Positions 8,155 through 34,458 of a stretch of 64,000 nucleotides of DNA are shown piece after piece (position 1 is the first letter of the stretch; each line of letters opens with the position of its first letter). The stretch comes from Devosia sp. ZB163 (GTDB lineage Bacteria; Pseudomonadota; Alphaproteobacteria; Rhizobiales; Devosiaceae), in the NCBI RefSeq assembly GCF_028613635.1, contig NZ_JAQRMY010000001.1, positions 1,282,331-1,346,330 on the forward strand, written 5' to 3'. The notes beneath the pieces are model-generated. The model searched no databases and was not told the DNA's origin. It saw only the letters and a program-made list of their open reading frames with translations. The position numbers were made by a program, and so were the translations under genes.

Positions 8155-8254
8155 ACCCCTCCCCCTTGAGGGGAGGGTAGGGTGGGGGTCCATCAGTGGA
8201 CCACCGAACCACCCCCTCCCTCAGTCCCTCCCCTCAAGGGGGAGGGAGGCGATA
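8155..8254. repeat. Intergenic palindromic repeat, family B
   Basis: A unit of about 100 bp made of two inverted CCTCCCCCTTGAGGGGAGG-type hairpins separated by GGTGGGGGTCCATCAGTGGA. Its right half (8208-8253) matches the outer arm of the repeats flanking the DUF559 gene at 17.1-17.7 kb almost exactly. It sits between the small frame/M29 unit and the 3' end of ppk2. Confidence 0.85.
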
Positions 8255-14837: not shown

Positions 14838-16130
14838 ATGCGCACTGTCCATAAGGGCATATTGGCCGGCATCGGCCTTATGCTGGCGTCGAGCACGTCC
14901 GTGCTCGCGCAGGAGCTGACCATCTTCTGGGCCGAATGGGATCCGGCCAACTACCTGCAGGAACTGGTCAACGATTACACCGCCGAGACCGGCGTCACCG
15001 TCACCGTGCAGACCACGCCCTGGTCGGACTTCCAGACCAAGACCTTTGCCGAGCTCAACGCCCAGGGCGATGCCTACGACATGGTCGTGGGCGACAGCCA
15101 GTGGCTGGGCGCCGCCTCCGAGGGCGGCCACTATGTCGACCTGACCAAGTTCATCACCGACAACGGCGTCGACAAGTCGTTCGTGCCCGCCACGCTCCAG
15201 TACTACAGCCTGTACGGCGACAAGTACTGGTCGGTGCCGCTCGAGGGCGACGCCAATGGCTGGGCCTACCGCAAGGACTGGTTCGAGGACCCGACCGAGA
15301 TGGCCAACTTCAAGGCCAAGTACGGCTACGACCTCGGCGTTCCCAAGAACTACAAGGAACTCACCGATATCGCCGAGTTCTTCACCCGGCCCGACGAGAA
15401 CAAGTACGGCGTCGCGCTCTACACCCAGACCTCGTACGACGCCATGGCGATGGGCGTCGAGCAGACCATCTTCACCTGGGGTGGCGATCTGGGCGACTAC
15501 GCCAACAAGAAGGTCACCGGCATCCTCAACTCGCCCCAGAACATCGAGGCGCTCGAGGCTTACCGCAAGCTCTACACCTTTACCCCGCCCAACTGGAACC
15601 AGGCCTTCTTCGTCGAGAACAACCAGGCCTTCACCGAGGGTCTGGTGGCGATGGCGATGAACTACTTCGCCTTCTTCCCGGCGCTGGCCAACGAGGCGAC
15701 CAATCCGCACGCCAAGAGCACCGGCTACTTCGCCAACCCGCCCGGCCCGACCGGGGCCCAGCACGCCGCTCTCGGCGGCCAGGGCATCTCGATCATCAGC
15801 TACTCCAAGAACCAGGAAGAGGCCTACAAATTCCTCCAGTGGTTCATCCGTGACGACGTGCAGCAGAAATGGGCCGACCTGGGCGGCTACACCTGCTCGG
15901 CGGCAGTGCTGAACTCCGAGGGTTTCCTAAAGGCCACGCCGTACAACCAGGCCTTCGCCGACTCCATGAAGATCGTGAAGGACTTCTGGGCCGTGCCGGT
16001 CTTCGCCGACATGCTGTTCCAGATGAACGATCGCCTCCACCCCTACATCACCACGGGTGAGGGCACGGCCAAGGACGCGCTCGATGCGCTGGTCGGCGAC
16101 TGGAACAAGACGCTCGGCAACGACTCCTGA
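14838..16130 (+). CDS. Sugar ABC transporter substrate-binding protein (family 1)
   Basis: 430 residues from the ATG at 14838, preceded by GGGAGGA. It starts with a signal peptide (MRTVHKGILAGIGLMLASS..., cleavage probably after VLAQ). The mature part is a family 1 solute-binding protein: LTIFWAEWDPANYLQELVND, DMVVGDSQWLGAASEGG and a C-terminal EEAYKFLQWFI. It captures sugar in the periplasm for the importer encoded by the next five genes. The ligand cannot be read from sequence; the downstream enzymes point to a sugar or anhydrosugar that is oxidised before cleavage. Confidence 0.92.
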   Translation: MRTVHKGILAGIGLMLASSTSVLAQELTIFWAEWDPANYLQELVNDYTAETGVTVTVQTTPWSDFQTKTFAELNAQGDAYDMVVGDSQWLGAASEGGHYVDLTKFITDNGVDKSFVPATLQYYSLYGDKYWSVPLEGDANGWAYRKDWFEDPTEMANFKAKYGYDLGVPKNYKELTDIAEFFTRPDENKYGVALYTQTSYDAMAMGVEQTIFTWGGDLGDYANKKVTGILNSPQNIEALEAYRKLYTFTPPNWNQAFFVENNQAFTEGLVAMAMNYFAFFPALANEATNPHAKSTGYFANPPGPTGAQHAALGGQGISIISYSKNQEEAYKFLQWFIRDDVQQKWADLGGYTCSAAVLNSEGFLKATPYNQAFADSMKIVKDFWAVPVFADMLFQMNDRLHPYITTGEGTAKDALDALVGDWNKTLGNDS

Positions 16131-16194
16131 CGGAGTCCCGACCACGGACCGGGGCGCGTCCCCGGTCCTCATCTATCGACATCAGGGGGTAAGA

Positions 16195-17091
16195 TTGGCT
16201 GTCCTTGCGACGCTCGATTCCGGTTCCCGGGCCGCCGCGCGGGGCTGGAGCGACCTGGCGATACGGAATGCGTTCATCCTTCCGACCATCGCCTTTCTCA
16301 TCGTGTTCAACATCTTCCCGCTGATCTATTCGCTCGGCTTCTCTTTCACCGAGTATCGCGTCTCGCTGCAGAAACCCGCCGAGTTCGTCGGGCTGCAGAA
16401 CTACGCGGATCTGCTCTCCGATCCGGCCATCTGGCGCAGCTTCACCACCACCGCGCAGTACGTCATCGTCTCCGTCGGCGGACAGATGATCGTCGGCTTC
16501 GGCCTCGCCCTGCTGCTCAACCGGCCCTTCAAGTTCAAGGGTCTCGTGACGACGCTCCTGATGCTGCCCATGATGCTGTCGCCGGCCGTCGTCGGGCTGT
16601 TCTGGAAGCTGCTCTACGACCCCTCCTGGGGGCCCATCAACTATGCGCTGGGCATCGGCAAGTTCGAGTGGCTGAGCAACCGCGTCAACGCCCTGTTCGC
16701 CGTTGCCATCACCGATATCTGGATGTGGTCGCCCTTCGTCATGCTGCTCTCGCTGGCCGGCCTCTCGGCCATTCCCAAGAGCCTCTACGAGGCCGCAGCG
16801 ATCGATCGCGCCAGCTGGTGGTACACGTTCCGCCGCATCACCCTGCCGCTGGTCTCGCCGCTGCTGCTGATCGCCCTGATCTTCCGCACCATGGAAGCCT
16901 TCAAGGCCTTCGACCTGCCCTTCATCATGTCGACCGCCAGCGTCGAAACCATCGCCATCAAGCTCTACCAGATGGCCTTCCAGGGCTGGGACACCGGCCG
17001 CGCCTCGGCGCTCGCCTACATCGTCCTGATCGTCGTCGTCTGCATCACCAACATCTACGTCAAATACCTCAACCGGGCGAAGGAGCGCTGA
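16195..17091 (+). CDS. Sugar ABC transporter permease 1 (TTG start)
   Basis: 298 residues. The start is taken as TTG at 16195 because AGGGGG lies 5 bases upstream and homology begins soon after; no ATG or GTG fits, and the frame upstream overlaps the preceding gene. About six membrane segments are present. The cytoplasmic EAA loop is EAAAIDRASWWYTFRRITLP, which docks the ATPase. The fold is the MalF/UgpA-type permease family. Its stop overlaps the ATG of the DUF559 frame (TGATG) rather than the second permease, because of the cassette inserted between them. Confidence 0.92.
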   Translation: MAVLATLDSGSRAAARGWSDLAIRNAFILPTIAFLIVFNIFPLIYSLGFSFTEYRVSLQKPAEFVGLQNYADLLSDPAIWRSFTTTAQYVIVSVGGQMIVGFGLALLLNRPFKFKGLVTTLLMLPMMLSPAVVGLFWKLLYDPSWGPINYALGIGKFEWLSNRVNALFAVAITDIWMWSPFVMLLSLAGLSAIPKSLYEAAAIDRASWWYTFRRITLPLVSPLLLIALIFRTMEAFKAFDLPFIMSTASVETIAIKLYQMAFQGWDTGRASALAYIVLIVVVCITNIYVKYLNRAKER

Positions 17092-17726
17092 TGATGACCC
17101 AGCCTCCGAGCGTGCAGCAATCGCCTCCCTCCCCCTTGAGGGGAGGGATCGAGGGAGGGGGTGGTTCTGTTGATCACCGCCCGACCCCCACCCCCCACCC
17201 CTCTCTTCCAGGGGGAGCGGAGCCCGCCGACGCCATCTTCTCCAATGCGCGCCATCTCCGCACCAGGAGCGTCGCCTCAGCCCGCCGCCTGCGCACCGGC
17301 GCAACCGTCCCCGAACGCCACATGTGGAGGCTGCTGCGGTCATTCTCTGGCCGCCGTTTCCGCCGACAGGTTCCGTTCGGACCGTTCGTGGTCGACTTCG
17401 CGTGCCACCAGGTCGGTCTGATCATCGAACTGGACGGGGAAACGCATTTCGATACCGAGGCCATCGAGCGCGATCGGCACCGCACGGCTTGGTTGAACGC
17501 AGCCGGCTATCACGTCCTGCGCTTCACCAACGGTGACATCATCACCAACGCCCAGGGTGTCTGGACCACCATCAACGCCGCCCTCAACACCTCGCCCCCC
17601 TCCCCCTTGAGGGGAGGGGCCGGGGGTGGGGGTCCATCAGTGATAACCGCACCACCCCCTCCCTCTATCCCTCCCCTCAAGGGGGAGGGAGGCGATGGGG
17701 TCGCAACAGCCGAGGGGAAATCCTGA
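17091..17726 (+). CDS. DUF559 (endonuclease-like) protein inside an inverted-repeat cassette
   Basis: 211 residues. Residues 54-166 match the DUF559 family, related to Vsr/PD-(D/E)XK-type nucleases: RRLRTGATVPERHMWRLLR, FRRQVPFGPFVVDFACH, LIIELDGETHF and GYHVLRFTNGDI. Candidate catalytic acids are E75, D102, E113 and D115. Residues 11-40 and about 168-205 are translated repeat DNA (PPSPLRGG and IPPLKGEGG), low-complexity and unlikely to fold. The start overlaps permease 1 (TGATG) and the stop overlaps permease 2 (TGATG), so it is embedded in the importer operon without a frame break. It has no evident role in sugar transport. Confidence 0.85.
   Translation: MMTQPPSVQQSPPSPLRGGIEGGGGSVDHRPTPTPHPSLPGGAEPADAIFSNARHLRTRSVASARRLRTGATVPERHMWRLLRSFSGRRFRRQVPFGPFVVDFACHQVGLIIELDGETHFDTEAIERDRHRTAWLNAAGYHVLRFTNGDIITNAQGVWTTINAALNTSPPSPLRGGAGGGGPSVITAPPPPSIPPLKGEGGDGVATAEGKS
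17121..17222. repeat. Family B repeat, left flank of the DUF559 cassette
   Basis: The outer 46 bp (17121-17166) is the inverted copy of 17651-17696 with one mismatch (C versus A at the 31st base). The inner part reads on into a second CCCCACCCC...GGGGG arm that is more degraded. It encodes PPSPLRGGIEGGGG in the DUF559 frame. Confidence 0.9.
17592..17696. repeat. Family B repeat, right flank of the DUF559 cassette
   Basis: A complete family-B unit in opposite orientation to the left flank. The outer arm is 17651-17696; the inner arm carries GGGGGTCCATCAGTGA, shared with the copy at 8.2 kb. It ends 29 bp before the start of permease 2. No target-site duplication could be recognised outside the two flanks. 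Confidence 0.9.
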
Positions 17727-18682
17727 TGGCCGCCGTTACTTCGCGTGGCCAGCGCTTCGGCCGTCCGGTTGCCATCCTCGCCATCCTTGCGGTGACGCTT
17801 ATCTTCCTGTCGCCGATCCTGTGGATCGGGGCCACGGCGTTCAAGCCGCGCGCCGTCGCGACATCCGTCCCACCCACCGTCTTCTTCGAGCCCGAGGTCA
17901 CGCCCTTCGTGAAACTCCTCACCAAGCGCGTGCAGCTGAAGCAACCCGTGGCGCCCGAGGTCTACGAGGCCGCCCCGTGGTGGGAGAAGCTCGTCTACGA
18001 TGGGGGCGAGCGCGTGCTGAAGGTCGGCGACGAGCCGCAGCTGTCGCAGTACCCCAACCGCTTCCTCAACAGCCTGATCGTATCGATCGTCTCGACGGTG
18101 CTCGCCGTCTCGATGGGCACGATCACCGCCTATGGCTTCTCGCGCTTCAAGATCAAGGGCGAGCAGGACCTGCTCTTCTTCATCCTCAGTACGCGCATGC
18201 TGCCGCCGGTGGTCGTCGCCATCCCGATGTTCCTGATGTACCGGCAGTTCGACCTGACCGACTCGCATGTCGGCCTCATTATCCTCTACACCGCCTTCAA
18301 CCTCAGCTTCTCGGTCTGGCTGATGAAGGGCTTCATCGACGAGATCCCGAAGGAATACGAGGAAGCGGCGCTGGTCGACGGCTACACGCGCATGCAGGCG
18401 TTCTTCAAGATCGTCCTGCCCGAGGCGGCCACCGGCATCGCCGCCACCGCGGTGTTCTGCTTCATCACCGCCTGGAACGAGTACGCCTTCGCGCTGATCA
18501 TGACCAACCGGCGCGCCCAGACCGCGCCCCCCTTCATTCCCAGCCAGATCGGTTCGGGCCTCCCCGAGTGGACGGTGATCGCCGCTGGCACCGTGCTGTT
18601 CCTGCTGCCGGTCGCGATCTTCACCTTCCTGTTGCGCAATCACCTGCTGCGCGGCGTTACCTTCGGAGCGATCCGCAAATGA
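17726..18682 (+). CDS. Sugar ABC transporter permease 2
   Basis: 318 residues, MalG/UgpE-type inner-membrane permease with about six membrane segments. The EAA loop is EEAALVDGYTRMQAFFKIVLP. A periplasmic insertion of about 60 residues after the first segment (around VQLKQPVAPEVYEAAPWWEK) is longer than in MalG. The ATG overlaps the stop of the DUF559 frame. Its own stop overlaps the next ATG by 4 bp (ATGA), so the importer genes remain tightly coupled. Confidence 0.93.
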   Translation: MAAVTSRGQRFGRPVAILAILAVTLIFLSPILWIGATAFKPRAVATSVPPTVFFEPEVTPFVKLLTKRVQLKQPVAPEVYEAAPWWEKLVYDGGERVLKVGDEPQLSQYPNRFLNSLIVSIVSTVLAVSMGTITAYGFSRFKIKGEQDLLFFILSTRMLPPVVVAIPMFLMYRQFDLTDSHVGLIILYTAFNLSFSVWLMKGFIDEIPKEYEEAALVDGYTRMQAFFKIVLPEAATGIAATAVFCFITAWNEYAFALIMTNRRAQTAPPFIPSQIGSGLPEWTVIAAGTVLFLLPVAIFTFLLRNHLLRGVTFGAIRK

Positions 18683-34359: not shown

Positions 34360-34458
34360 CGCCTCCCTCCCCCTTGAGGGGAGGGATCGAGGGAGGGGGT
34401 GGCCGCAGTTGACCGCCGGACGACCCCCACCCCAGCCCCTCCCCTCGAGCGGGAGGGG
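34360..34458. repeat. Intergenic palindromic repeat, family B
   Basis: CCTCCCCCTTGAGGGGAGGGATCGAGGG on the left with a GGGGGTGG extension, and CCCCACCCC...CCCCTCGAGCGGGAGGGG on the right. It is close to the left flank of the DUF559 cassette. It lies between converging genes. Confidence 0.87.

Follow-up and report, generated by a model that had tools for sequence, protein, structure and literature searches.

DUF559 nuclease-like genes bracketed by inverted palindromic repeats: candidate partner enzymes for BoxC/PIT-type repeats, viewed from a cassette in Devosia sp. ZB163

Short bacterial repeats of the BoxC/PIT kind have been known since the 1990s without an origin or function (Holder 2015, PMC4666352). 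In the available sections of that paper, the BoxC/PIT triplex motif is reported from more than 260 genomes, its origin is called 'unclear' and the mechanism is left unanswered, TM_ECO is described as forming an intrastrand triplex in vitro, and E. coli K-12 is credited with 23 motifs, the E. coli strains being split into 29 with many motifs and 27 with few (PMC4666352). The same sections tie the motif to no gene class and state that mobility-providing activities around the sites were never found; its main text does not contain the terms 'endonuclease', 'nuclease', 'Vsr' or 'ycjD' (PMC4666352). CGTC REPs, which occur mostly in Alphaproteobacteria, are likewise described, in the portion of the source at hand, as being without a dedicated transposase (Di Nocera 2013, PMC3733652). 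As for DUF559 proteins, excerpts of a recent study identify Caulobacter VsrA, a DUF559 protein, as the agent behind SOS induction in an scmA mutant, i.e. upon loss of a cytosine methyltransferase, and propose a role in mismatch repair (Matthey 2026, PMC12907096). No description of a DUF559–repeat pairing was found in an open-access collection, judged mostly from listings and with most subscription papers and preprints lying outside it. An earlier note on this DNA had known of no such pair; within this scope the same holds for the pairing, but the repeat motif itself was already known as BoxC/PIT/triplex.

The window, by which we mean the whole 64-kb stretch of DNA analysed, comes from the 4.59-Mb genome of Devosia sp. 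ZB163 (G000, the own genome) and contains the following features.

17120..17696, + strand: cassette of inverted repeats and a DUF559 gene, recognised from its inverted arms and from 8 of 11 readable orthologous junctions being empty
17091..17726, + strand: ORF with a DUF559 (PF04480) nuclease-like domain and repeat-derived peptides at both termini
17271..17585, + strand: DUF559 domain, in which the positions E, D, ExDG..H, D and R are the invariant ones
17121..17215 (right limit approximate), no strand assigned: left repeat dimer, outer half-unit (17121-17166) intact, inner half-unit degraded
17592..17696, no strand assigned: right repeat dimer, both half-units intact
8158..8245, no strand assigned: solo dimer of the window-cassette family (units at 8158 and 8227); in genome G012 the syntenic gap yielded no repeat core
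34366..34456, no strand assigned: solo dimer of the window-cassette family (units at 34366 and 34438); the syntenic gap of G012 has another family
16057..17091, + strand: ABC permease 1, left neighbour of the cassette
17726..18682, + strand: ABC permease 2, right neighbour of the cassette

The two cassette arms, at 17120-17171 and 17645-17696, form an inverted pair of 52 nt each, 94% complementary and 473 nt apart; they score 43 in a pattern-free bracketing test, which takes the best ungapped inverted match between the 200 bp on either side. The 46-nt arms described earlier (17121-17166 and 17651-17696) indeed differ by one base. Each flank is a dimer of two facing half-units, and the outer arms match because the dimers are themselves inverted. 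The ORF runs from an ATG at 17091 to a stop at 17724-17726 in a frame that passes through both repeats. At each end it shares a TGATG with a permease gene, on the left with the stop of permease 1 (17089-17091) and on the right with the start of permease 2 (17726), bearing out the earlier description of translated repeats and overlapped permease genes. The solo occurrences announced at 8.2 and 34.4 kb were likewise recovered (8158/8227 and 34366/34438). Tying the repeat to 'family B' was too narrow, since DUF559 lineages carry variants of one general motif. Rfam has no match anywhere in the 64-kb window. Elsewhere in the window, pairs of CTTCTCCC-/CCTCTCCC-type hairpins (11584/11635, 21132/21180, 22371/22421, 24638/24688, 25883/25934 and 39790/39921) resemble the repeats flanking the other DUF559 genes of this genome.

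Orthologous permease junctions were readable in 11 genomes, the own genome included, and unreadable in two (G001, at a contig start; G008, in a run of N). Eight of the 11 are empty, with abutting genes; G004 holds a bare dimer of another variant and no gene; and G000 and G012 carry the cassette. The eight empty junctions identify the cassette as an insertion. They rule out an ancient permease operon that included DUF559, and with it the prospect, raised earlier, that this junction always contains the gene. The proposed comparison of strains with and without the insertion thus supplied empty sites, but the target duplication is ambiguous: G015 is empty, and G012 has a possible 7-bp AGATGGC repeat overlapping a start codon that must stay. 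At a second site, a topoisomerase-IB junction read at 7 of 13 loci, G004 carries a cassette, the G008 junction is empty, a dimer from a different family stands in G005, one unit in G015 and a partial repeat, at a contig end, in G002, and G000 and G012 have none. When the window was aligned with G012 (blocks 78-91% identical), repeats were present in the window only at eight syntenic gaps, in G012 only at three and in both at eight, the last by eye mostly of different families; 11 further gaps were without repeats or exceeded 2.5 kb. We do not claim site-for-site replacement of repeats, as eight shared gaps are hardly above the expectation from the numbers of repeat-bearing gaps. Some cassettes stay at one site across species, a persistence implying that movement may be rare.

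Turning to the rest of the own genome, the 20-nt repeat core has 96 and 88 matches on the two strands at up to 3 mismatches, some palindromic sites being counted twice, and the reversed core has 0. Six DUF559 domains are encoded, and all six are bracketed, with arm scores of 18-47 against at most 13 in within-locus controls. The repeats around these genes are mostly different variants, of types CTTCTCCC, CACCTCTCCC, CCCCTCKCCCC, CCCTCCCCCTTGTG, CCCTCCCCCTTGAG (the window cassette) and CCACCGC..GGGGGAGGGGGACC (locus L006). A view of L006 as devoid of repeats had come from a pattern search and was ruled out by pattern-free arms scoring 47. Within a 320-kb sample of this genome (16 stretches at round-number positions, with no DUF559 gene inside), solo copies of the six types at up to 3 mismatches numbered 6, 1, 6, 15, 15 and 0, the fourth and fifth overlapping, and reversed patterns numbered 0.

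DUF559 is present in 17 of the 19 genomes of the genus, with 76 matches, 70 of which were examined (six were partial or near contig ends). Sequence of 250 bp was available on either side at 63 of these sites, seven falling short. Inverted arms score at least 16 at 50 of the 63 and at least 20 at 42, compared with 2 of 2926 sliding control positions scoring at least 16 in fetched stretches longer than 9 kb. Both control matches sit in a single stretch of the own genome, L074, where a phage-type structural gene (MTAQSGKDMLLKLDQSGSG...) lies between two window-family dimers (15860-16420; G000 C2 about 107160-107720); non-DUF559 genes can therefore also be flanked. At twelve of the 13 genus sites scoring below 16, a repeat core lies no more than 200 bp away on one side or both, and the remaining site has degenerate units on both. 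Four loci (L007, L015, L027 and L037) have DUF559 directly upstream of what by eye is seemingly one conserved gene shared by several genomes of the genus, with repeats on the upstream side only, and these perhaps represent an older, settled copy.

Bracketing by repeats extends far beyond the window locus. Drawing one DUF559 locus per genome from 199 Pseudomonadota genomes, we found scores of at least 16 at 15 of 29 fully flanked loci and at 5 of 576 controls. Among named loci (the best-scoring 80 of at least 576 relatives, 73 of them fully flanked and seven without 250 bp on a side), 52 of 73 reached that score and 0 of 2063 controls did so; because the named and genus sets share at least one site (L132 = G008), their counts were not summed. 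The 52 span alpha-, beta- and gammaproteobacteria, a Syntrophales, a Gastranaerophilales, SAR202 Chloroflexota and Planctomycetota, and the named loci from Clostridia, Oscillospiraceae and Bacteroidetes score below 16. Of 39 DUF559 places in a plasmid collection, 12 loci were read. Four score at least 16, namely S. meliloti Ak57 (102), Deinococcus (53), Pseudanabaena (40) and Azospirillum lipoferum (24), and eight do not: four other Azospirillum (11-12), Sinorhizobium K101 (9), E. coli ycjD (8), Picosynechococcus (11) and Synechocystis (8). At most of these eight, hairpins resembling the repeats can be seen on at least one side, and the four Azospirillum plasmids have a dimer on the upstream side only. 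In all, 14 of 29 phylum, 21 of 73 named and 8 of 12 plasmid-collection loci are without strong inverted arms. K101 had been considered as an empty site relative to Ak57 and was set aside, the difference being a deletion within the gene. A palindromic intergenic repeat that follows a Sinorhizobium DUF559 gene (L208, 2837-2997) has hundreds of matching places on rhizobial plasmids, and the two are a possible further enzyme/repeat pair.

Under the same test, Vsr genes were bracketed in 0 of 29 cases and Y1_Tnp genes in 1 of 26, which leaves DUF559 as the only one of the three families tested to be recurrently bracketed. The earlier note had asked how often DUF559 genes are flanked relative to other genes, and the answer is far oftener than control positions, Vsr genes or Y1_Tnp genes. 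A RAYT as mobiliser was rejected, as Y1_Tnp has no match in the own genome and is not associated with the repeat.

The repeats and the gene also occur together across genomes. A generic hairpin pattern, CCTCYCCCN{3,8}GGGRGAGG, was counted in 198 Pseudomonadota genomes, the own genome being left out, 56 of which have DUF559 at E<1e-10. Three or more copies were present in 49 of these 56 and in 8 of the 142 others (odds ratio 117; Fisher p 3e-30; 0 of 20000 permutations within families). For any match at E<=0.001, the corresponding numbers are 28 of 114 with and 29 of 84 without Y1_Tnp (odds ratio 0.62), and 20 of 47 with and 37 of 151 without Vsr (odds ratio 2.3, p 0.026); genome size is addressed only indirectly, through these weak associations and the permutation within families. 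The exceptions comprise seven genomes with DUF559 at E<1e-10 and fewer than three copies, and the eight with at least three copies and no DUF559 at that threshold, including G072 (64 copies), G191 (29) and G067 (25). Chance or GC-richness was excluded as the source of the repeats, for reversed patterns gave 0 matches in the own-genome searches, 0-1 per genus genome and 0-3 per Pseudomonadota genome except G216 (11 reversed, 0 forward), and sliding controls are near 0. Within the genus, the lowest counts, 0 and 6, are those of the two genomes that lack DUF559, against 24-448 in the 17 with it. Family-specific patterns gave a mixed outcome there: the CTTCTCCC-type hairpin has at least 13 copies in 14 genomes, of which only five show a matching DUF559 flank (the pattern also catches another family), and none of the five genomes with at most 5 copies shows one.

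The usual half-unit has the order C-rich arm, loop, G-rich arm, short loop and third G-rich arm. Read by eye at DUF559 flanks, this three-arm layout takes the form GGGAGAGGG-TTA-GGGTGAGGG, along with -CCG- forms; the window-cassette family has the third G-rich arm, yet is more divergent from the triplex motif. The outer repeat ends, also by eye, are ATCGCC in the window cassette and GCAGTCGG or CGTC in some other lineages. One lineage has half-units of two hairpins (L043, 9745-9830; L038, 9800-9870), and its second stem, with 25 distinct stems in 41 instances, covaries (mean 3.56 pairs; re-paired null mean 2.19, maximum 3.12 in 2000), so that structure, beyond sequence alone, is kept in this lineage.

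Repeat and protein lineages go together. Over 51 genus sites with arms scoring at least 14 (1194 non-syntenic pairs), protein and repeat similarity correlate with a Spearman coefficient of 0.398, compared with a mean of 0.034 and a maximum of 0.251 in within-genome protein shuffles, of which 0 of 2000 reached the observed value. By eye, one clade of the protein tree has GGGGGACC-type units and another CCTCCCCC-type units, and in G004 three non-syntenic DUF559 paralogues share one repeat unit (two of them read directly). Gene and repeats are thus carried along or inherited together; recognition does not follow from the correlation alone, and the pairing could reflect joint descent instead.

Taken together, we put at about two in three the probability that DUF559 is the dedicated nuclease of dispersed palindromic repeats of the BoxC/PIT/triplex type, an arrangement like that of RAYT and REP with an unrelated enzyme. 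The earlier suggestion that DUF559 mobilises or maintains the repeat is supported by the bracketing, the co-occurrence, the lineage pairing and the empty junctions, from which we infer the cutting and moving. Purifying selection on the protein, the covarying second hairpin of one lineage, the lack of a Y1_Tnp match in the own genome and the E. coli contrast described below also speak for it. Against it stand the exceptions to co-occurrence, the mixed family-level counts, the loci without strong arms, the ambiguous target duplications and the mismatch-repair role proposed for VsrA. The information-bearing unit would be the cassette 'half-unit > DUF559 gene < half-unit', solo half-units and dimers would be its non-autonomous relatives, and each family would be served by the DUF559 lineage with the same repeat. 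The candidate small PD-(D/E)XK nuclease, of Vsr/EDxHD type, would recognise the half-units that belong to it, most likely in the form of hairpins or triplexes on single strands exposed in replication, and would cut at them. Through break repair or strand transfer, repeats, and on rare occasions an entire cassette, could then be copied into further intergenic positions, the route being either transposition or gene conversion of a homing-like kind between repeats.

The alternative that survives best, though we consider it unlikely, is that DUF559 is a homing endonuclease-like gene living on the repeats: it would cut solo dimers and be copied between the palindrome halves, the repeats being made by something else. 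The cassette protein matches PF04480 over residues 61-165 at 103.2 bits (cut-off 20.6), its other match being PF18741, under its cut-off; the AlphaFold2 model has a pLDDT of 89 and a pTM of 0.80; and 16 columns are invariant in 22 DUF559 domains, among them E15, D42, E53, D55, H59, D68 and R71. Solved relatives found by profile are 3hrl, an endonuclease-like protein (E 1.7e-38), and 3r3p (E 1.6e-5), a mobile intron protein, which we take to be I-Bth0305I; the relation to 3r3p favours the homing reading. Architecture is also in keeping with a gene that split a target. At 134 sites (64 genus and 70 named), the third arm, or tail, of the nearest half-units points inward at 40 and outward at 3, the rest being mixed, unclear or without a core on a side; 16 of the 134 have no core within 200 bp by the architecture pattern. 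Solo neighbouring units are tails-out in 21 cases and tails-in in 10, so the notion that a solo dimer is a cassette minus its gene fits some families only. That syntenic gaps often carry different repeat families in two related genomes would suit such a parasite as well. A parasite would not, however, predict that the repeats are near-absent from most genomes without the gene, nor that gene and repeat lineages go together, and neither of the other enzyme families tested, Vsr and Y1_Tnp, is tied to the repeats.

Improbable, in our judgement, is a third reading, in which DUF559 serves the host in repair by resolving the hairpins or triplexes that the repeats form, and repeats are tolerated only in its presence. 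Purifying selection and long residence at shared sites agree with it. For 30 pairs at shared sites (identity above 0.6; non-independent, some being tandem neighbours), dN/dS has a median of 0.16 and a maximum of 0.30, and the window protein and that of G012 give 0.18. The protein is thus under purifying selection, and the gene seems functional and long-lived. The SOS response that Caulobacter VsrA causes on loss of the cytosine methyltransferase, as given in the excerpts (PMC12907096), points the same way, as does the scarcity of BoxC-like places in sampled E. coli chromosomes without ycjD.

In E. coli, ycjD, which carries DUF559, lies between sapF and fabI, with a unit GGGGAGAGGG-TTA-GGGTGAGGGG about 170 bp 3' of it and a degenerate core at the ycjD end; 3364 of 5426 genomes hold a place in which ycjD together with the downstream unit is covered to at least 80%. 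Sixty records were taken at even ranking steps, and 58 chromosomes were kept after two plasmid rows were left out. The 37 with such a ycjD place contain 14-30 BoxC-like places (median 22, the ycjD one counted), and the 21 without it contain 2-19 (median 4, two chromosomes having 18-19). The contrast (p 6e-9, own place subtracted) concerns related and hence non-independent strains, may amount to few independent events, and would miss diverged BoxC copies. Past the degenerate core downstream of ycjD, a stretch resembling the last part of ycjD recurs (L209, 2885-2925), perhaps what is left of a second DUF559 gene, and one strain without ycjD has a TetR regulator and RND efflux genes upstream of fabI (L306, 1-4646). 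A repair role leaves unexplained why, at many unrelated sites, the gene lies between copies of its own repeat, why it multiplies with them, as in the three non-syntenic paralogues of G004 with one repeat, and why it is absent from orthologous junctions.

That DUF559 is a passenger whose cassette ends are moved in trans by another enzyme would accord with the lack of a target-site signature linking the protein to movement and with the phage-type structural gene between two family-B dimers in the own genome, but we regard it as very improbable, since both control matches of 2926 fall in the stretch with that gene and DUF559 alone of the three families tested is recurrently bracketed.

Returning to DUF559 as the dedicated nuclease of the repeats, a wider proposition, to which we give somewhat less than even odds, is that BoxC/PIT-type repeats at large form one mobile-element superfamily whose autonomous members are DUF559 cassettes, with a Vsr/EDxHD-type nuclease acting on hairpins or triplexes, no transposase, and very many lineage-specific enzyme/repeat pairs. 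These results offer a candidate partner enzyme for widespread short bacterial repeats and a candidate function for DUF559, and the question is testable in E. coli K-12, in which ycjD is present. The pairing might also explain the division of E. coli into many- and few-motif strains in the available sections of Holder 2015 (PMC4666352). Each lineage would then provide an enzyme and its target, paired by nature, for the structure-specific recognition of DNA.

How, then, does the DUF559 cassette compare with known systems, as far as the accessible parts of the cited papers describe them? Vsr belongs to a family related to DUF559, but PF03852 genes are unbracketed (0 of 29) and have no match in the own genome, and the Vsr model TIGR00632 matches only 2 of the 22 DUF559 domains, the window domain not among them. 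The EDxHD homing endonuclease I-Bth0305I (PMC3943268) resembles DUF559 by profile, through 3r3p, and may do so in the conserved E-x-D-G..H..D pattern of DUF559; it differs in that the DUF559 domain is about 105 aa, no intron was seen and palindromic repeats bracket the gene. With BoxC/PIT/TM_ECO, the repeats share, by eye, a C-rich arm, a G-rich arm, a TTA or CCG loop and a third G-rich arm, together with intergenic location, some inverted pairs and copy numbers that differ among strains; the difference is the DUF559 pairing found here, the motif having no gene partner in the portions of Holder 2015 available (PMC4666352). RAYT/REP systems (REPtrons, REPINs) use an HUH Y1 transposase where a PD-(D/E)XK-type nuclease is found here (PMC3733652), and their GTAG foot tag is, by eye, absent from the repeats read in this work. 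In both, the gene is flanked by inverted palindromes of its own kind that are dispersed in the genome (PMC3733652, PMC3116915, PMC2817692), and in both, solo copies and dimers appear as presumed non-autonomous relatives, with several families per genome (PMC3733652).
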